Assembly (NCBI GenBank): GCA_007126035.1 | Contig: SLCC01000065.1 | Span: 1-35,530 of the forward strand | Direction: 5' to 3' | DNA length: 35,530 nucleotides | Origin: Gemmatimonadota bacterium | Lineage (GTDB): Bacteria; Gemmatimonadota; Gemmatimonadetes; Longimicrobiales; RSA9 | Shown here: positions 6,804 through 15,029 of the stretch, piece by piece | Numbering within the stretch: position 1 is the first letter of the stretch | Layout of the letters: the number at the start of each line of letters is the position of its first letter | Program-made: the position numbers and the translations under genes | Notes under the pieces: generated by a model | What the model saw: the letters and a program-made list of their open reading frames with translations, nothing else | Told to the model about the DNA's origin: nothing | The model's database searches: none

Positions 6804-6959
6804 TCACCACTGGCGGGGTCGCCTGGTCGCCGCCGCCACCACCGCCCGCACTGTCCAGGGACCCCGCAATACTGGATCGGACTGCTCACGCAGCAGCACC
6901 ACGGTGGTAGCGCGCCCCGTCCGGCGGCCCACGACGAACGGCCGCTCCCGCGCCTTCAC
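6804..6959 (-). CDS. Candidate small protein between lexA and truA
   Basis: A 51-codon open frame starts with GTG overlapping the lexA stop as GTGA and stops 7 bases before the truA TTG start. The predicted protein is strongly basic, with many Arg and Val residues, and has a mildly hydrophobic stretch near residues 36-44. I recognise no family. The support is positional: it fills exactly the gap between two genes, with coupling at both ends. In GC-rich DNA a frame this short can stay open by chance, so this is tentative. The alternative is that truA is simply translated after a 159-base spacer. Confidence 0.35.
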   Translation of the reverse strand: MKARERPFVVGRRTGRATTVVLLREQSDPVLRGPWTVRAVVAAATRRPRQW

Positions 6960-7582
6960 GCGTACCTCCGCATCACGCCCATCACTATACCCTGCACCTG
7001 CACCCGGTCGGCAGGGAAGAACATGGGAGACAGCGCCGCGTTGGCAGGCTGCAACCGGATCCGGCCGTCCTTCTCCCGGTAGAACTTCTTGACCGTGGCC
7101 GACTCCATGTCCACCAGCGCCACCACCATGTCCCCGTCGTCCGCGGTCTGACGATGCCGCACCACCAGGTAATCTCCGTCCCGGATCTGCTCATCGATCA
7201 TGGAGTCACCGTTCACCCGCAGCACGTAGTGCTCCCCCCGACCGAGCATCTCCTCCGGCACGGCGACCGCCTCCTGATCCTGCACGGCCTCGATAGGCAC
7301 GCCCGCCGCCACCTGGCCCAGCAGCGGGAGCGAGACGGCACCCGTCCTGACCTGCGCCGGCACCACCTCGATGGAGCGGCTCACATTGTGACCCTTTCGG
7401 ATATAGCCTTTTGCGCGCAAATTCTCCAGGTGCTCGTGCACAGTCGCGAGCGAGCTGTAGCCGAAGCGCGCTGCGATCTCCTCGAAGCTGGGAGCGTAAC
7501 CGTGCCCGGCGGCAAACTCTTCGACGAAATCCAGGATCTCCCGCTGCTTTCTGGTCAGGGGCTTCTGCTGGTGCGAGGTCAT
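6956..7582 (-). CDS. lexA: LexA repressor
   Basis: Transcriptional repressor of the DNA-damage (SOS) response, inactivated by RecA-stimulated self-cleavage. The product is 208 residues. The N-terminal winged helix-turn-helix spans about residues 8-70 (Thr-Arg-Lys-Gln-Arg-Glu start, recognition region near SLATVHEHLENL). The cleavage bond is Ala93-Gly94. The Ser127 (NGDSM) and Lys165 (ATVKKF) dyad forms the S24 peptidase site. The ATG at 7582 starts directly before the DNA-binding domain; the frame stays open far upstream across trpF, but that part is antisense. It is divergent from the trpF-like gene across 97 bases that hold candidate operators. It heads the minus-strand group, suggesting truA may be co-transcribed. 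Confidence 0.96.
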   Translation of the reverse strand: MTSHQQKPLTRKQREILDFVEEFAAGHGYAPSFEEIAARFGYSSLATVHEHLENLRAKGYIRKGHNVSRSIEVVPAQVRTGAVSLPLLGQVAAGVPIEAVQDQEAVAVPEEMLGRGEHYVLRVNGDSMIDEQIRDGDYLVVRHRQTADDGDMVVALVDMESATVKKFYREKDGRIRLQPANAALSPMFFPADRVQVQGIVMGVMRRYA

Positions 7583-7679
7583 GTCGGCGTCTCCGAAGAA
7601 AGTCCGAAGCCAATATGTACCGAACATGGGCCGAAGGGCAAGGGCCGCGTGGCAGCCCCGAAGGCACCGCTGAGGAGAA
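7583..7679. promoter_or_regulatory. lexA / trpF-like divergent promoter region with direct repeats
   Basis: Two direct-repeat pairs are present on the plus strand: GAAG (7595-7598) and GAAG (7606-7609), then GAAC (7622-7625) and GAAG (7633-7636), each pair separated by exactly 7 bases. Each half-site is preceded by CC. A fifth CCGAAG starts at 7658. For lexA, TTGCCC (complement of 7636-7641) and CATATT (complement of 7612-7617) are spaced 18 bases, a weak -35/-10 pair that the second repeat would overlap. The half-site spacing resembles the GTTC-N7-GTTC LexA box known in alphaproteobacteria. Confidence 0.42.
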
Positions 7680-8348
7680 GTGAGGTACCCGGTGATACCT
7701 GCATTGCCAGATGTGAAGGTCTGTGGGCTCTGTGATCCGTCTGACGCCGCGGAGGCGGTGGCGGCGGGTGCGACGCACGTCGGTGTGATCCGAGTGCCGT
7801 TCAGCCGGCGGATGCGTTCTCTGCCCGTGGCCAGGTCCGTATGCATGGCTGCGGTGGGGGCGTTGCGGGTGGGGGTGTACGTGGATGAGTCGACCGTGAC
7901 CATCCTGCGAGAGGCGTCACAGCTGGGGCTGGACGTGATACAGCTCCACGGCTCCGAGACTCCTGAGCGGGTGGAGGCTCTGGTTGCGCGTGGTCTGGAG
8001 GTGTGGAAGACGGTGAAGCCGGTGCGGGCGGAAGATCTTCTGGCATCGACGCGTCTGTACGCGGCCGCGGACCTGCTGTTGGTGGAGGGGCGTAGCGACC
8101 TGGACGTCTGGGTTGCGGGTCCCCGTTCCCGGTGGGGCGAGGTGGCTGCGGCAGTGGATCGGTTGCCGCCCGGCACGCTCCTGGGAGTGACGGGCGGCCT
8201 GACGCCGGAGAACGTGGGCCAGGTGGTCCGTCGGTTCCGGCCAACATTGGTGGATGTGAGCACTGGGGTGGAGTCGGAGCGGGGTCGCAAGGATCCGCTG
8301 CTGGTCACCGAGTTCATCAGTCAGGCCCGGGCCACAGGTGGTTCATAG
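7680..8348 (+). CDS. trpF: Phosphoribosylanthranilate isomerase-like protein, divergent
   Basis: TrpF catalyses the Amadori rearrangement of phosphoribosylanthranilate in tryptophan synthesis. This 222-residue protein has the family frame: the catalytic Cys15 in KVCG, LDVIQLHG near 84-91, TGGLTPENV near 171-179, and VDVSTGVE near 191-198. Two usually strict features differ. The general-acid Asp of the LLLD strand is absent; Val135-Glu136 stand there. The phosphate-binding GG(T/S)GK loop is replaced by WVAGPR. No other trp gene is nearby. GTG at 7680 is used; GTG at 7692 has a better-placed GAGG and is a real alternative. It may be an active variant with Glu as acid, or a repurposed barrel. 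Confidence 0.78.
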   Translation: MRYPVIPALPDVKVCGLCDPSDAAEAVAAGATHVGVIRVPFSRRMRSLPVARSVCMAAVGALRVGVYVDESTVTILREASQLGLDVIQLHGSETPERVEALVARGLEVWKTVKPVRAEDLLASTRLYAAADLLLVEGRSDLDVWVAGPRSRWGEVAAAVDRLPPGTLLGVTGGLTPENVGQVVRRFRPTLVDVSTGVESERGRKDPLLVTEFISQARATGGS

Positions 8349-8407
8349 TGGCGCGTTGGGGGGCGTATGGTAAATTGGACCGAAGCGTTTGAGAGTCGTC
8401 TCTGGTG

Positions 8408-10123
8408 ATGGAGGCGAACGGATTGAGCGATCCGACGGCCGGCGCAGGTGAAGGGCCGGCAAGGGACGCACCTGGCAGTGCGGAAGTGGCATCTCTTCTG
8501 GGGATGCTCCCCAAGGCTCTGCGCGCCTTCCAGATGTACGAGTCCAACAACCCCGTGTTTCGGCATTTTCAGGATGCCTTGCGGGATTCCCTTGTCAGTC
8601 TCTGGTCCAGGGCGGATGAGCTGGAGCTGGCGGTTCACGAAGACGGGTTCGAGTATCGAGGCAGGAGGTTTCCCGTCGGCTCGGGTCGAGACTCCCTGGC
8701 TTACTCCTTCCACAAGGACGGGATCCGCTACCTGAAGTTCCTGCCAGGTTTCGAGGACGAGGTGGGGCCGTTCCTGGCAGCGATCCAGCGGGCGCGTCGT
8801 CGTGACGATGACGAGAACGACATGGTCGCTGTGCTGTGGGAGGCTGATCTCAGCGCATTCGAGTATCGCTGGGTGGACCTGCTGACCGGGGCCGTGGCGA
8901 TGCCTGAGGCACCAGGCGGAGGCGCGGCCGGCGCCCTCGCGGCGATTCCGTCGGAGGTGGGGGCGGAGGAAGCGGTGGGCGAGCCGGCGGACCGCGCGGC
9001 GATCGGGCTGACGCGGGATGACTTCGACGATACGCTCTACTTCCTCGGTCGAGCCGAGCTTGCGACCCTGGCTGCGGAGGTCGAAGCCGAACGGGGACGC
9101 GACCTTCGGCGGGGCGTGTTGAACGCGCTGCTCGATCGGCTGGAAGACGCCTCGAGCCCGGTGCGGCAGGAAGAGATCATGGACATCCTGGATCAGCTCC
9201 TGCCCATGTTCCTGAGCCGTGGCGAGTTGACCTACGCGGTCCAGATCCTGGATGAGCTGGACCGGCTGTCGAAGGGAGCGGCCGACTCCAATCTGGCGCT
9301 GGTGGAACGGGTAGAGAAGCTGTTCTCCCGCCTCGAGGACCAACAGGTGCTGGAGCAGTTCGTCCGGGCGTTGGAGGATGGGGCGGTCTCGCCGGACTCC
9401 CATGAGGTAGGCCTTTTCTTCAGCCGACTCCGAGACCCGGCCCTGCCCGTGCTGATCCGGTTCGCGGAGGCGACGGCTGATCCGGCGGTGGCGAGCCGCC
9501 TGGCATCGGCCATCGACGGTGTGGCCGCCAGGTATCCCGCCACAGTGGCCTCCCTTCTGGCCTCGGAGGACACGGTGCTGGTGAAGGGAGCAGCTCGTGC
9601 GGCGGGTCGGACGAAGATGACACGGGCGGTGGACGGGCTCAAGAACGCCCTCTCCCACCGGGATCCAACGTTGAGGTTGGTGGCCGTGAAGGCCTTGGCG
9701 CTGCTTCGGTCGCCCTCGTCGTTGCAGGCGCTGATCGGGCCGCTCCGCGATGAGGACCGGGAGGTGCGTATCGCAGCCGCTCGCGCTCTGGGCGCTTTGG
9801 GGTACGTCTCGGCGCGGGATGCGCTGTGGGAGGCACTGGGGGGTCGTCGCTTGAGGGACGCGGACCTGACGGAGAAGTTGGCGTTCTTCGAAGCGTACGG
9901 CGCGGTGGGCGGGTCTGTGGCAGCGGAACGTCTGGGTCGTATGCTCAACGGCAAGGGTTTCCTGGGGCGCAGGACCAGGTCGGATCTCCGGGCGTGCGCG
10001 GCCCTCGGTCTCGGCCAGCTCGGCACGGTGGAGGCCAGGGCCGCGCTGGAGAAGGGTCGCTTCGACGACGACCCGGTGGTCCGGAATGCGGTGCTGCGTG
10101 CGTTGCAGGAGGACGGGCAATGA
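8408..10123 (+). CDS. HEAT-repeat protein with a module shared with the next gene
   Basis: A 571-residue, probably cytosolic protein with no transmembrane segment. Residues about 31-130 form an N-terminal alpha/beta module resembling that of the following HD-GYP protein. An acidic/alanine-rich linker lies near 165-200. From about 210 to the end it is helical, and clear HEAT repeats occupy about 395-560 (for example segments around RDPTLRLVAVKAL and DREVRIAAARALGALG). HEAT solenoids are protein-binding scaffolds; no catalytic motif is visible. The ATG at 8408 is used. GTG at 8405 is equivalent, while TTG at 8423 has a better ribosome site (GGAGG, 8-base spacing). Its stop overlaps the HD-GYP start as ATGA, so the two are probably made together and may bind each other. 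Confidence 0.85.
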   Translation: MEANGLSDPTAGAGEGPARDAPGSAEVASLLGMLPKALRAFQMYESNNPVFRHFQDALRDSLVSLWSRADELELAVHEDGFEYRGRRFPVGSGRDSLAYSFHKDGIRYLKFLPGFEDEVGPFLAAIQRARRRDDDENDMVAVLWEADLSAFEYRWVDLLTGAVAMPEAPGGGAAGALAAIPSEVGAEEAVGEPADRAAIGLTRDDFDDTLYFLGRAELATLAAEVEAERGRDLRRGVLNALLDRLEDASSPVRQEEIMDILDQLLPMFLSRGELTYAVQILDELDRLSKGAADSNLALVERVEKLFSRLEDQQVLEQFVRALEDGAVSPDSHEVGLFFSRLRDPALPVLIRFAEATADPAVASRLASAIDGVAARYPATVASLLASEDTVLVKGAARAAGRTKMTRAVDGLKNALSHRDPTLRLVAVKALALLRSPSSLQALIGPLRDEDREVRIAAARALGALGYVSARDALWEALGGRRLRDADLTEKLAFFEAYGAVGGSVAAERLGRMLNGKGFLGRRTRSDLRACAALGLGQLGTVEARAALEKGRFDDDPVVRNAVLRALQEDGQ

Positions 10124-11568
10124 GCCAGGAGACCCTGACGTTCGGCACCACGGCGGCCCAGCAGCAGCGGCACGCGCAGGCGGTCCTGGTAGGCCTGTAC
10201 TCGGCGCTCCAGGCGCTGCGGCTATTCCCCCTCGAGAATCAGACGGTACAGAAGGCGTTGGTTGACCTGCACGCAGCCACCGCGCGTGTCGTCGAGCGGG
10301 AAGGTGAGCTGGAGGTGGCGCTGGTGGGGGACTTCCTCTTCGTGAACGAGGTCAGGGTCCGGCTGGATCTGTCCACCTACGCCGCCTTCTCGCTGGTCTC
10401 TTCGTCCATGCAGCGGCATCGCGTCGGGACTATCCGGGTCGCCCGTGGCGTTGAGCGGGAGGAGTGGCCGCCTTTCCTGGCCCTGCTCCTCCAGCAGGCC
10501 GAGGCCGAAGAGGAGACGTTCGAGCGGTTCGCTGCCCGGCTCGAGACGACACCGGTTCGACACCTGGTGGTGGGTCCCCCCAGGGAGCGGCCGCAGCTGG
10601 ACCACGAGGCCCAACTCTCGAAGGAAGCGGCGAAACAGGCCTACTTCCAGACGGTGGAGGTCGCCAGGAGCGTACTGGGAGATGTGAGGCTGAAGAAGTC
10701 GGTGAACGCGCGGCGTGTGAAGCGGTCGGTCCAGAACATTGTGGATCAGGTCCTCAACAACGAGACCTGGATCATGGGGATGACCGCGCTCCGCGACTAC
10801 GACGACTACACGTTCACCCACTGCGTGAACGTGTGCATCTTCAGCGTGGTCCTGGGCCAGAAACTGGGCCTGCCGAAGCTGGATCTGTACGAGCTGGGCG
10901 TCGGCGGGTTGCTCCACGACATCGGCAAGATGAGGGTGGATGAGAGCATCACCAAGAAGCCGGGGTCGCTGACCGAGGCGGAGCTGAGGGCTATCCAGGA
11001 GCATCCCACGGAGGGCCTTCTGGCACTGTTCAACATGCATGGCTTCGGGGAGGTGCCGTACCGGGCCATGCTCACGGCGTACGAGCACCACATGAAGACG
11101 GACCTGACGGGATATCCGCGCAGCAAGAGGCCCCGCGCGCCCGGCCTCTTCTCCCGCATCGTCGCCGTCGCTGACGCGTTCGATGCCGCCACGTCGGTCC
11201 GGTGTTACCAGGCGCTGCCCAAGCGCCCGGAAGACGCCCTGGAGGAGATGCGTGACAATGAGAAGCGGGGTCTTGACCCGCTGCTGGTCAAGGCGCTCAT
11301 CAACGTCACCGGCATCTACCCGGTGGGGACTCTGGTCTTCCTCGACACCTTCGAGCTGGCCGTGGTGACGGCCGCCAATCCGGACCGGGAGAAGTTGCAC
11401 CAGCCGGTGGTCAAGGTCATCTACGACGCCCGGGGCGTACCCCTGGCCGAGCCGGTCACGGTCAACCTGGCCGTGGATGGCGCCGCTGAAGGCCGCCCGC
11501 GCCGCCGCGTCATCAAGACGACGCGCCCGGATAGCCACGGCATCGACGTGGGCGCCTATTTCCTGTAA
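10120..11568 (+). CDS. HD-GYP domain protein, putative cyclic-di-nucleotide phosphodiesterase
   Basis: The 482-residue product has an N-terminal module (about 23-128) resembling that of the upstream HEAT protein, a helical connector (165-215) and an HD-GYP domain (about 220-400). HD-GYP proteins typically hydrolyse cyclic di-GMP using a di- or tri-iron site. Visible metal-site residues are His266-Asp267 (HDIGK), the histidine of EHP near 289, His323-His324 and the Asp of VADAFDA; the name motif Gly331-Tyr332-Pro333 is intact. The usual HHERxDGxGYP stretch reads HHMKTDLTGYP, a modest departure. A C-terminal beta-rich tail (about 410-460) is typical of a subgroup. ATG at 10120 overlaps the previous stop. 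There is no receiver domain, so input may come through the N-terminal module or the HEAT partner. Confidence 0.9.
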   Translation: MSQETLTFGTTAAQQQRHAQAVLVGLYSALQALRLFPLENQTVQKALVDLHAATARVVEREGELEVALVGDFLFVNEVRVRLDLSTYAAFSLVSSSMQRHRVGTIRVARGVEREEWPPFLALLLQQAEAEEETFERFAARLETTPVRHLVVGPPRERPQLDHEAQLSKEAAKQAYFQTVEVARSVLGDVRLKKSVNARRVKRSVQNIVDQVLNNETWIMGMTALRDYDDYTFTHCVNVCIFSVVLGQKLGLPKLDLYELGVGGLLHDIGKMRVDESITKKPGSLTEAELRAIQEHPTEGLLALFNMHGFGEVPYRAMLTAYEHHMKTDLTGYPRSKRPRAPGLFSRIVAVADAFDAATSVRCYQALPKRPEDALEEMRDNEKRGLDPLLVKALINVTGIYPVGTLVFLDTFELAVVTAANPDREKLHQPVVKVIYDARGVPLAEPVTVNLAVDGAAEGRPRRRVIKTTRPDSHGIDVGAYFL

Positions 11569-11608: not shown

Positions 11609-13282
11609 TCAGTCCTTCAGCCGCTCCGGCAGGGCCGGGTCCGGGTGGACGAACAGGGTCGAGACCTGATCGGGTAGCACGATGCCGGGAGCGGCTTTGC
11701 GCGGCTTGCGGACGTGCTTGCGCCGGGTCCAGTCCACGGGGACCGTGCCCGACGTCCTGGCCCGGCTGTTGAGAGCAGCGAGGACGGCTGCCTCCACCAG
11801 GTCGGCTTGCGGAGGGCTCCGTTCACGGTCGTCCCAGCGCAGCACGACGTGCGCCCCGGCGGCGTCACGGGCATGGAGCCATATGTCGTCCGGCGAGGAG
11901 TGGTGGAAGGTAAGCTCGTCGTTGGCGCGACCCGCCCGCCCGACCCGGATCTCCAGACCGCCTGAGCTCCGGAACCGGCGATACGGCAGCCGCTCCGTCT
12001 CGGGCATCGACTGCCGCGCCTGCGGCCTGATGCCTTCCAACCAGCGCGAAACCTCGGCGGGATCGGCCCGGCCCTCATCTGCTGCCTGGAGGAACGTCTC
12101 GAGCCGGTTCTGGTCGGCTAGGAGTGAGCGGATGCGGGAGGGCAGGCGGGCCGCGGCCCGCTCCCGCTTGCGGGCCCGGTCGTAGAGGGCCCGGGCGTTG
12201 TCCATGGGGGTGAGGGTCGGGTCCAGGTCCAGCGCCAGCGTGCCACCCTGGAAATCGTCGAGTGTGACCTGCCGCTCACCTTTCCGGAACCGGTGGAGCT
12301 GTGCCATCAACAGGTCCGCCTGCCTTCGAAGCGCCACGGCCTCGGCCGGTGCAGACGCCGCTTCGGCTCGCATACGGGCCGCCTGGGCGCGCACCCGCGC
12401 CAGCTGATCCTGGAGGGCTGCCCGGACCTCGGGCGCCAGGACCGATGCGCCAGGCTGGTCGGCCGCCTGTTCCAGCGCGGTCAGCAAGGACAGGACGGTC
12501 CTGCCGGAAACTCCGGGCAGAGGCAGCGGGTACGGCGTGGGACGATCCAGCTCCAGCAGCTGCGGGTGCGCGGGAGGAAGGGAGGCGATCTCGCGGTACC
12601 TCTTCCACGCGGGCTCTATCGGCCCCGGCTCCGTGGCGGCAGGGCCCAGGATGGCGGCCACGTTCAGCGGACTGGTCCAGGCCACCGACCTGACCAGCGC
12701 ACGACCCCGCTCGCCAGGGTCGATGTCGCGAAGGAGGTCCTGCCAGCGATCAAGGCTGATGGGGCTCTCCGCCCCTTCCCTGCCGGCGCCAGCCCGGCCA
12801 GGTGGCTCGTAGGGAACGCCCGCTCGGAGCGCGCGCATCCCCTGCCTCCGGGGCCGCATGGCCGAGATGATGGTGCCGTCCGGCGCCAGGGCCAGAACGT
12901 TCCACTGGTTGGTCATGAGCTCGACCACGAGACGAGCCGCCCGGTCCGGCCCACCGGCGTCGATGTCGATCGCCAGCCACCGCTCGTCGGGAGGGGCGGA
13001 GATTCGACGGATCCGGGGGCGACGCTGGGTCGGTATCCGCCGGCCGCCCCACCCCTCCACCGCTTCCTGTGAGCCCTGCGGGGGAGACATCGCCACCACA
13101 CGGATCCAGCCGCGCGTCGGGTGGAGCTCCCAGGCCAGCCGCTCGTCGCCCAGCTCGAGCGTGAAGCGCCGAGCGTCCGGATCCAGTCTCACGCCCCTCA
13201 ACCGTCGGGCGCGGAGTCGATCGTTCAGCTCCCTTGCGAGGTACTGGACCAGGATAGCATCATAGCGAATTACGTTTGACAC
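11609..13282 (-). CDS. rqcH: RqcH, NFACT-family ribosome quality control factor
   Basis: Bacterial Rqc2/NEMF homologue. It binds stalled 50S-peptidyl-tRNA complexes and directs alanine tailing of the nascent chain for degradation. The product is 557 residues, close to the usual size. The NFACT-N domain covers about 1-190, a helical/coiled-coil middle (about 285-400) includes an Ala/Arg-rich stretch, and the C-terminal NFACT-R (DUF814) domain lies about 440-540 with DDIWLHARDAAGAHVVLR. The near-invariant Asp-Arg pair of NFACT-N appears as Glu100-Arg101 (preceded by Asp99). The start is GTG at 13282 with GAGG almost adjacent. It converges on the HD-GYP gene and diverges from panB. Confidence 0.92.
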   Translation of the reverse strand: MSNVIRYDAILVQYLARELNDRLRARRLRGVRLDPDARRFTLELGDERLAWELHPTRGWIRVVAMSPPQGSQEAVEGWGGRRIPTQRRPRIRRISAPPDERWLAIDIDAGGPDRAARLVVELMTNQWNVLALAPDGTIISAMRPRRQGMRALRAGVPYEPPGRAGAGREGAESPISLDRWQDLLRDIDPGERGRALVRSVAWTSPLNVAAILGPAATEPGPIEPAWKRYREIASLPPAHPQLLELDRPTPYPLPLPGVSGRTVLSLLTALEQAADQPGASVLAPEVRAALQDQLARVRAQAARMRAEAASAPAEAVALRRQADLLMAQLHRFRKGERQVTLDDFQGGTLALDLDPTLTPMDNARALYDRARKRERAAARLPSRIRSLLADQNRLETFLQAADEGRADPAEVSRWLEGIRPQARQSMPETERLPYRRFRSSGGLEIRVGRAGRANDELTFHHSSPDDIWLHARDAAGAHVVLRWDDRERSPPQADLVEAAVLAALNSRARTSGTVPVDWTRRKHVRKPRKAAPGIVLPDQVSTLFVHPDPALPERLKD

Positions 13283-13344
13283 CTCGGAATAGTGGGTCTA
13301 GCTTCGGGCGCACGTCAAACCCTGCAACCGAGCGGTCATCGCCT

Positions 13345-14166
13345 ATGAGCACGGGCTCTGGCAGCGGGCGTACCACCATCAGGCGCCTGCTGGAGATGAA
13401 GGAGCGCGGCGAGAAGATAGTTGCGCTCACGGCATACGACTACCTGTTCGCCCGGCTGGTGGACGAGTCGGGGGTGGACGTGGTGTTGGTGGGTGACTCG
13501 TTGGGCCAGGTGGTGCTGGGTCACGAGAGCACGCTCCCGGTGACGATCCAGGACATGATCCACCACGGGCGGGCTGCCCGGCGGGGAGTGAAGAACGCGC
13601 TGCTGGTGGTGGACATGCCGTTCCTCAGCTTCCATGTCGCCCCGGCCGAGACCGTGCGCAACGGCGGTCGACTCATGGCCGAGACCGGGGCGGGGGCGGT
13701 GAAGCTGGAGGGCGGCAGCGCCTCGACCTGCGAGCATGTGGAGCGTCTGGTGGCCGCGGGGATCCCGGTGATGGGTCATGTGGGACTGACCCCGCAGTCG
13801 GTGCACGCTCTGGGCGGTTATCGGGTGCAGGGTCGTGGGGCGGCGGAGGGGGACCGGATCAGGCGGGAGGCGAAGGCCCTCGAGGAGGCCGGCTGCTTCA
13901 GCATCGTCCTCGAACTGCTGCCGGCGGCTCTGGCAGCGGACATCACGGCGGCCGCTCGGGTACCCACCATCGGGATCGGAGCCGGACCGGCGTGCGACGG
14001 CCAGATCCTGGTGCTGCACGACATGCTGGGCCTGAACGAAGGGTTCCGGCCCCGCTTCCTGCGGCGGTTCGCCGAGCTGGGCCGCGAGACTCGCCGGGGT
14101 GTGGAGTCCTATGTGAGCGCGGTCCGGTCAGGCGAGTATCCTGATCCGGAGCACTCTCACGAGTGA
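13345..14166 (+). CDS. panB: 3-methyl-2-oxobutanoate hydroxymethyltransferase
   Basis: First committed step of pantothenate synthesis: adds a hydroxymethyl group from methylene-tetrahydrofolate to ketoisovalerate, giving ketopantoate. It is a cytosolic, Mg-dependent TIM barrel. The 273-residue product shows the family N-terminus (LTAYDYLFARLVDESG), the metal-binding VLVGDSLGQVVLG loop, KLEGG near residue 122, GHVGLTPQ near 141, and GIGAGPACDGQILV near 210. ATG at 13345 is chosen over a 23-residue longer form because the family begins here. The stop overlaps the panC start as GTGA. Confidence 0.96.
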   Translation: MSTGSGSGRTTIRRLLEMKERGEKIVALTAYDYLFARLVDESGVDVVLVGDSLGQVVLGHESTLPVTIQDMIHHGRAARRGVKNALLVVDMPFLSFHVAPAETVRNGGRLMAETGAGAVKLEGGSASTCEHVERLVAAGIPVMGHVGLTPQSVHALGGYRVQGRGAAEGDRIRREAKALEEAGCFSIVLELLPAALAADITAAARVPTIGIGAGPACDGQILVLHDMLGLNEGFRPRFLRRFAELGRETRRGVESYVSAVRSGEYPDPEHSHE

Positions 14167-15029
14167 GGACGATCACCACCATAGCAGAGCTCCGCCGCGA
14201 GGTGGCGGCAGTGAGGGAACGCCACGGTTCGACTGGCCCGGGAGCCGGCGACCCTGTGGTGGGCCTGGTCCCCACCATGGGCTACCTCCACGAGGGTCAC
14301 CTGGCCCTGGTTGATCGGATCAGGGAGCTGGTTCCGTTCGTGGTCATGTCACTGTTCGTAAATCCCACGCAGTTCGGGGAGGGCGAGGACTTCGAGGCCT
14401 ATCCGCGGGACCTGAGCCGGGACATGGAGCTTGCGGAACAGCGCGGGGTACACGTCCTCTTCACGCCGTCGGTGGCGGAGGTATACCCGGCGGGCAGGCC
14501 GCTGGTGAGGGTGGTGCCGGGCCCGCTGGCGGACGTGCTGTGCGGCGCGTTCAGGCCGGGACATTTCGAGGGCGTGCTCACGGTGGTGGCCAAGCTGTTC
14601 GGCATGACGCAGCCGGACGTGGCGGTGTTCGGGCAGAAGGACTACCAACAGGTGGCGTTGATCCGGCGCATGGCGCGGGATCTGGACATGCCAGTCAGGA
14701 TAGAGGTGGTGCCGACCGTGCGAGATTACGACGGTCTGGCTCTCTCGTCCCGGAACGCCTATCTGACGGAGGTGGAGCGGGTCCGGGCCAGGACGCTGTC
14801 GGCCGGGCTGTTCGCGGCCCGGGCCGCGTTCGCAGAGGGCGAGGCCGCCGCGGATCGGCTGAAGGGATGTGCGGTGATCACGATGGCAGAGGCGGCGGTG
14901 AACCCGGAGTACCTGGAATTGCTGGATCCGGATACCCTGGCGCCGCTGGCGGAGGCGAGGGCGGGGGCGGTGCTGGCAGTGGCGGCCACGGTCGGTGCGA
15001 CCCGGCTCATCGACAACGTCATACTGTGA
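14163..15029 (+). CDS. panC: Pantothenate synthetase
   Basis: ATP-dependent condensation of pantoate with beta-alanine through a pantoyl-adenylate, in the cytosol. The 288-residue product has the nucleotidyl-transferase HIGH-like motif (TMGYLHEGHLAL, near 38-49), SLFVNPTQFG near 63-72, the GQKDYQQ segment near 158-164, and the KMSKS-like SSRNAYLT near 196-203. GTG at 14163 overlaps the panB stop by 4 bases. It is followed 22 bases later by panD, which supplies its beta-alanine, so the three-gene set covers the route apart from ketopantoate reduction (no panE or ilvC here). Confidence 0.96.
   Translation: MRTITTIAELRREVAAVRERHGSTGPGAGDPVVGLVPTMGYLHEGHLALVDRIRELVPFVVMSLFVNPTQFGEGEDFEAYPRDLSRDMELAEQRGVHVLFTPSVAEVYPAGRPLVRVVPGPLADVLCGAFRPGHFEGVLTVVAKLFGMTQPDVAVFGQKDYQQVALIRRMARDLDMPVRIEVVPTVRDYDGLALSSRNAYLTEVERVRARTLSAGLFAARAAFAEGEAAADRLKGCAVITMAEAAVNPEYLELLDPDTLAPLAEARAGAVLAVAATVGATRLIDNVIL

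Follow-up and report, generated by a model that had tools for sequence, protein, structure and literature searches.

An unnamed N-terminal module common to neighbouring HEAT-repeat and HD-GYP proteins of Gemmatimonadota: a candidate cyclic-di-nucleotide unit

An HD-GYP enzyme usually carries its controlling sensor domain in its own chain. The DUF3391-HD-GYP protein Swit_5388 of Rhizorhabdus wittichii shares 37% identity over 250 residues with the HD-GYP protein considered here; the likeness takes in the helices before the HD domain, the Y-T-F/Y-T-Y-type HD-GYP domain and, up to about residue 420, the beginning of the C-terminal beta part. The N-terminus of Swit_5388-type proteins is DUF3391, whereas the protein here has an unnamed module instead, and Swit_5388 has no adjacent HEAT partner in its record. 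As the catalytic half resembles DUF3391-HD-GYP proteins, the module can be seen as replacing DUF3391 on a known chassis. PmGH (4MCW) and V-cGAP3 (5Z7C) have the HD-GYP fold and most catalytic residues in common with the present protein; PmGH differs in its GAF domain and in the trinuclear ligand E185, where Y230 stands here. Bd1817 of Bdellovibrio (3TM8), in the second best group of fold matches, likewise shows the two-metal HD-GYP fold; it is an inactive protein without the tyrosine of GYP (PMC4159591), whereas GYP is intact here. Finally, GGDEF-STAND-module-module-HEAT proteins of Gemmatimonadota (P0003, P0004) carry the same module and HEAT repeats, but with a cyclase rather than a phosphodiesterase, in one polypeptide, and with two modules, each the other's nearest neighbour in the tree.

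The window (the whole stretch of DNA analysed, 35,530 nucleotides) comes from a Gemmatimonadota bacterium with an assembly of 3.88 Mb. It contains a HEAT-repeat gene followed by an HD-GYP gene (Table 1), and a literature search found no paper describing such a pair. To our knowledge, c-di-GMP biology in this phylum is little known. The first protein belongs with HEAT-repeat proteins, having repeats above the Pfam cut-off and a helical solenoid in the model; its start may be the ATG at 8408 or a GTG at 8405. An earlier note, written from the sequence alone, had the two genes overlapping through ATGA, and so they do, the HEAT stop codon occupying 10121-10123 and the HD-GYP ATG 10120-10122; this suggests translational coupling.

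Table 1. Features of the HEAT/HD-GYP locus, in window coordinates
Feature	Position	Strand	Basis
HEAT-repeat gene (571 aa)	8408..10123	+	HEAT_2 74.1 bits, cut-off 27.7 (Pfam)
Shared module, HEAT protein, about residues 22-157	8471..8878	+	profiles, predicted structure
Flexible linker, HEAT protein, residues 162-210	8891..9037	+	model: pLDDT <50 nearly throughout
Helical solenoid, HEAT protein, residues 211-571	9038..10120	+	Pfam, predicted structure
ATGA overlap, HEAT stop / HD-GYP start	10120..10123	+	
HD-GYP gene (482 aa)	10120..11568	+	HD_5/HD; HD_5 63.0 bits, cut-off 27.2 (Pfam)
Shared module, HD-GYP protein, about residues 15-155	10162..10584	+	profiles, predicted structure
Pair of long helices leading from module to catalytic domain, residues 159-223	10594..10788	+	predicted structure
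HD-GYP catalytic domain, residues 224-397	10789..11310	+	sequence alignments, PMC4159591
Catalytic-domain residues D228, Y230, H234, H266-D267, K270, H295, H323-H324, G331-Y332-P333, D352, D355			
HD-GYP C-terminal beta part, residues 400-482	11317..11565	+	predicted structure

The same note proposed that both proteins begin with one module. Aligned directly by BLASTP, the two N-termini show no significant match (E = 6.2), and judged from this pair alone the likeness could be due to chance. Profiles built from 37 sequences per family bear the proposal out: the N-termini alone align with a score of 61.4 (probability 96.6, E 6.5e-10), whereas no column shuffle, out of 200, exceeds 23.3, a reversed profile scores 14.1, and the module against the C-terminal part of the other protein scores 11.3 and 15.6. 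Full-length profiles align with each other at their N-termini and nowhere else (probability 93.8, E 1.8e-7). The first ~135 residues of the two proteins are thus homologous, over a span of about 105-135 residues, longer than the note had stated. Its ungapped first block was correctly aligned, with an offset of 8 from the ATG at 8408 (9 holds from the GTG at 8405), and its match at G.E.E...PFLA was right; its 'GIR/TIR' match is out of register, the profile alignment setting HEAT D104-R107 opposite HD-GYP H100-G103. The loop that follows helix 1 is a signature of the module, reading LYxxNNP in HEAT-family and LYPxEN in HD-GYP-family members. In the genome that the window comes from there are exactly two modules, one in each gene of the pair. 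A Pfam scan gives no match in either N-terminus, Pfam against 41 module sequences yields just scattered single weak matches so that no model covers the module, and NCBIfam has no match on it; the module deserves a domain-family entry of its own. Searches of viral contigs, plasmids and phages turned up no relative of the module: a weak match on a Marinobacter plasmid lies antisense to an annotated gene and was set aside as chance.

Predicted structures agree with the profiles. The AlphaFold2 models have mean pLDDT 87.1 (HEAT) and 86.8 (HD-GYP), with the module blocks mostly >85. Unlike predicted folds of the two N-termini would, by the note, have refuted its idea; HEAT residues 24-155 and HD-GYP residues 8-152 instead have one element order: helix, helix, strands, helix, strand, helix, helix, strand. 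In the HEAT protein these are H24-43, H49-66, E72-77, E80-83, E86-89, H97-103, E106-111, H115-131, H139-146 and E151-155; in the HD-GYP protein, H8-35, H41-61, E64-69, E72-75, a short strand at 78-79, H87-99, E104-107, H113-124, H133-142 and E149-152. Element order and profile alignment together support the same predicted fold in both modules. With the full models as queries, fold searches return mainly matches to HEAT and HD domains and put no name to the fold of the module. The settings of the two copies differ in the models: the HD-GYP module rests on two long helices that run to the catalytic domain, and the HEAT module is tethered to its solenoid through a flexible linker.

The pair is conserved, and conserved as an overlapping pair, in relatives, so that the note's other ground for refutation, a pair not kept in relatives, does not apply. 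The HEAT gene lies directly upstream of the HD-GYP gene in 217 of 219 loci, and in the other two the HD-GYP gene stands at the start of a contig; the 219 include some duplicates between two collections, and 165 pairs are left under 95% identity. Across 37 loci with both genes the intergenic gap lies between -23 and +26 nt, and an overlap of 4 nt is common (as also in L037, if the upstream start is taken). Among 298 genomes sampled in the phylum, 201 have the HD-GYP N-terminus and 220 have the module. The best 80 of 486 HD-GYP relatives in a scan of genomic contigs are nearly all labelled Gemmatimonadota. A record titled Gammaproteobacteria (L131) contains a Gemmatimonadota-type HD-GYP gene, at 52% identity, and is probably a mislabelled or mixed metagenome bin.

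Apparent exceptions are instructive. Nine genomes were searched again and six loci read, all in draft metagenome assemblies, so that single cases could be assembly artefacts. In one the HEAT gene reaches the contig end (L355), and in another a HEAT fragment alone remains (L359). The other four are deletion remnants joining the HEAT N-terminal part to the HD-GYP tail, with breakpoints, numbered by matched relatives, at HEAT residue 235 and HD-GYP residue 393 (L356:3438-4393), 287 and 405 (L357:1253-2305), 115 and 449 (L358:1331-1699), and 148 and 400 (L360:3590-3982). Three of the four are in frame. The breakpoints differ, so the deletions look like separate events; each took out the HEAT repeats together with the catalytic HD domain. 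No intact lone HEAT or HD-GYP member was found among the re-examined loci. The genes being adjacent, and lost together, in all relatives that could be checked, the two proteins very probably work as one unit.

One could instead suppose that the genes are neighbours only because an old tandem arrangement was frozen along with its chromosomal surroundings, the two proteins having separate roles. Most loci do keep trp genes upstream and panB-panC downstream, as vertical inheritance would have it, and this synteny could preserve adjacency without physical contact, which counts against a single unit. Two observations make this explanation very improbable: losses take both genes, and a second pair holds the same order elsewhere in the genomes. 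From the conserved context, the pair may be co-transcribed with the trp genes.

This second, diverged pair came to light, with other module proteins, in a module-profile search of 13 genomes. A HEAT protein of ~680-830 aa is followed by an HD-GYP protein of ~400-585 aa (both measured as longest ORFs), and each contains the module. The HEAT gene of this pair is present in 124 of 298 genomes, an HD-GYP gene adjoins it in all 12 loci read (among them L202-L207, L211 and L215-L217), and catalytic residues are retained in most of the HD-GYP proteins. The search also showed rare giant proteins of ~1,500 residues, in which GGDEF, an AAA_16/STAND ATPase, two tandem modules and HEAT repeats form one chain. 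Two measure 1439 and 1535 aa (L209:2418-6737, L210:2456-7063), a third is cut by a contig end (L223:178-4155) and a fourth is partial; the GGDEF motif is intact (RYGGDEF). Such a chain ties the module to the making of cyclic-di-GMP as well as to its breaking. A maximum-likelihood tree keeps the five module families largely apart, with the order among families not resolved, and unites the two tandem modules of the cyclase proteins. There are also single-module HEAT proteins with no HD-GYP partner seen (L208, L212-L214); modules are therefore not always paired, which counts against the one-unit explanation.

What does the HD-GYP protein do? Residues of PmGH were mapped onto it by sequence alignment. 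PmGH has as metal ligands and catalytic Lys/Asp H189, H221, D222, K225, H250, H276, H277, D305 and D183 (PMC4159591). Here, H234, H266, D267, K270, H295, H323, H324 and D228 are kept in 37 of 37 relatives and D352 in 35; D228 and K270, the equivalents of D183 and K225, are thus both invariant. The GYP motif is nearly so (G331 37/37, Y332 36/37, P333 37/37). All metal ligands are conserved except at the position of PmGH E185, where the acidic ligand of the trinuclear (E/D-T-G) subgroup is absent and Y230 stands in 35 of 37 relatives. The protein thus belongs to the Y/F subgroup, for which two metals are predicted (PMC4159591); it probably binds two metals and is a probable cyclic-di-GMP-cutting enzyme. 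It is neither RpfG-like, a Pfam scan finding no receiver domain, nor a DUF3391 protein, that model giving no match here and 1.6e-25 on a positive control (L077).

Its substrate could be something other than c-di-GMP (3',3'-cGAMP, pGpG or an oligonucleotide), or the protein could be mainly a binding protein. V-cGAP3, its best solved sequence match, is a 3',3'-cGAMP phosphodiesterase, and K317, a c-di-GMP contact of PmGH, is Q364 here. However, the near-invariant metal ligands argue for catalysis, and the GGDEF genes of the genome, with ten GGDEF matches, and the fusion of the module to an intact RYGGDEF motif speak for c-di-GMP; we regard this family of alternatives as improbable. The earlier note had suggested a cyclic-di-nucleotide signalling unit: the link to such nucleotides is upheld by the intact HD-GYP site, the GGDEF genes and the GGDEF-STAND-module-module-HEAT proteins, and c-di-GMP is the presumed substrate.

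The explanation we prefer, with a probability of roughly 0.6, is that the pair forms one cyclic-di-nucleotide unit, in which the module links HEAT scaffold and HD-GYP enzyme into a regulated or localised phosphodiesterase complex. That is, the unnamed alpha/beta module of ~135 residues that begins both proteins would pack, HEAT copy against HD-GYP copy, and join the two; the HEAT scaffold, on its flexible linker, would thereby be mounted on the phosphodiesterase; a target or signal protein would bind to the solenoid; and this partner would place the enzyme or control c-di-GMP breakdown. Module homology with the matching predicted folds, the one module per gene in the host genome, adjacency, joint loss, the second pair, the GGDEF fusion, the ten GGDEF matches and the intact active site all count for it. 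The contact between modules would be direct and would form hetero- rather than homo-oligomers, making the module a dimerisation rather than a ligand-binding domain, and control of the enzyme would come from the HEAT-bound partner. Coevolution lends no support to such contact: in mean-field DCA of 165 non-redundant pairs (Meff 127), inter-module scores do not exceed those of same-phylogeny control blocks, and within-protein contacts are themselves poorly resolved; the mirror-tree correlation of the two proteins, 0.88, is to be expected from shared vertical descent and is not evidence of contact.

A different perspective makes the module a sensory domain for a small ligand, with the HEAT and HD-GYP proteins each homodimeric and answering the same signal, and no complex between them. 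Duplicated input domains ahead of different outputs are common in signalling proteins; the module is also found singly in HEAT-only proteins; and tandem modules in one chain could be two ligand sites no less than a pseudo-dimer. Mutual dependence nevertheless accounts better for the strict adjacency and the joint loss, the module matches no known ligand-binding family, and a sequence search of the PDB gave no relative of it. We consider this unlikely, while giving it more weight than the other alternatives.

The absence of any PilZ match in the host genome, and so of a PilZ effector, counts against a c-di-GMP unit; set beside the ten GGDEF matches, it also makes the HEAT partner a candidate for the missing link between c-di-GMP enzymes and their targets. 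More tentatively, and with the balance somewhat against it, the module may define an undescribed class of cyclic-di-nucleotide complexes, usually with two modules and a HEAT scaffold, and with an enzyme that either degrades (HD-GYP) or synthesises (GGDEF-STAND). Were this so, pairing of modules would serve these bacteria generally as a means of mounting c-di-GMP enzymes on HEAT scaffolds. In any case, an unnamed domain is common to an enzyme and a separate, neighbouring HEAT protein through much of Gemmatimonadota.

As to the surroundings of the pair in the window, trpF (7680-8348, same strand) is directly upstream and panB and panC (13276-15029) are downstream; a LexA-like repressor sequence, recognised by eye at 6956-7600 on the minus strand, is divergent from trpF.
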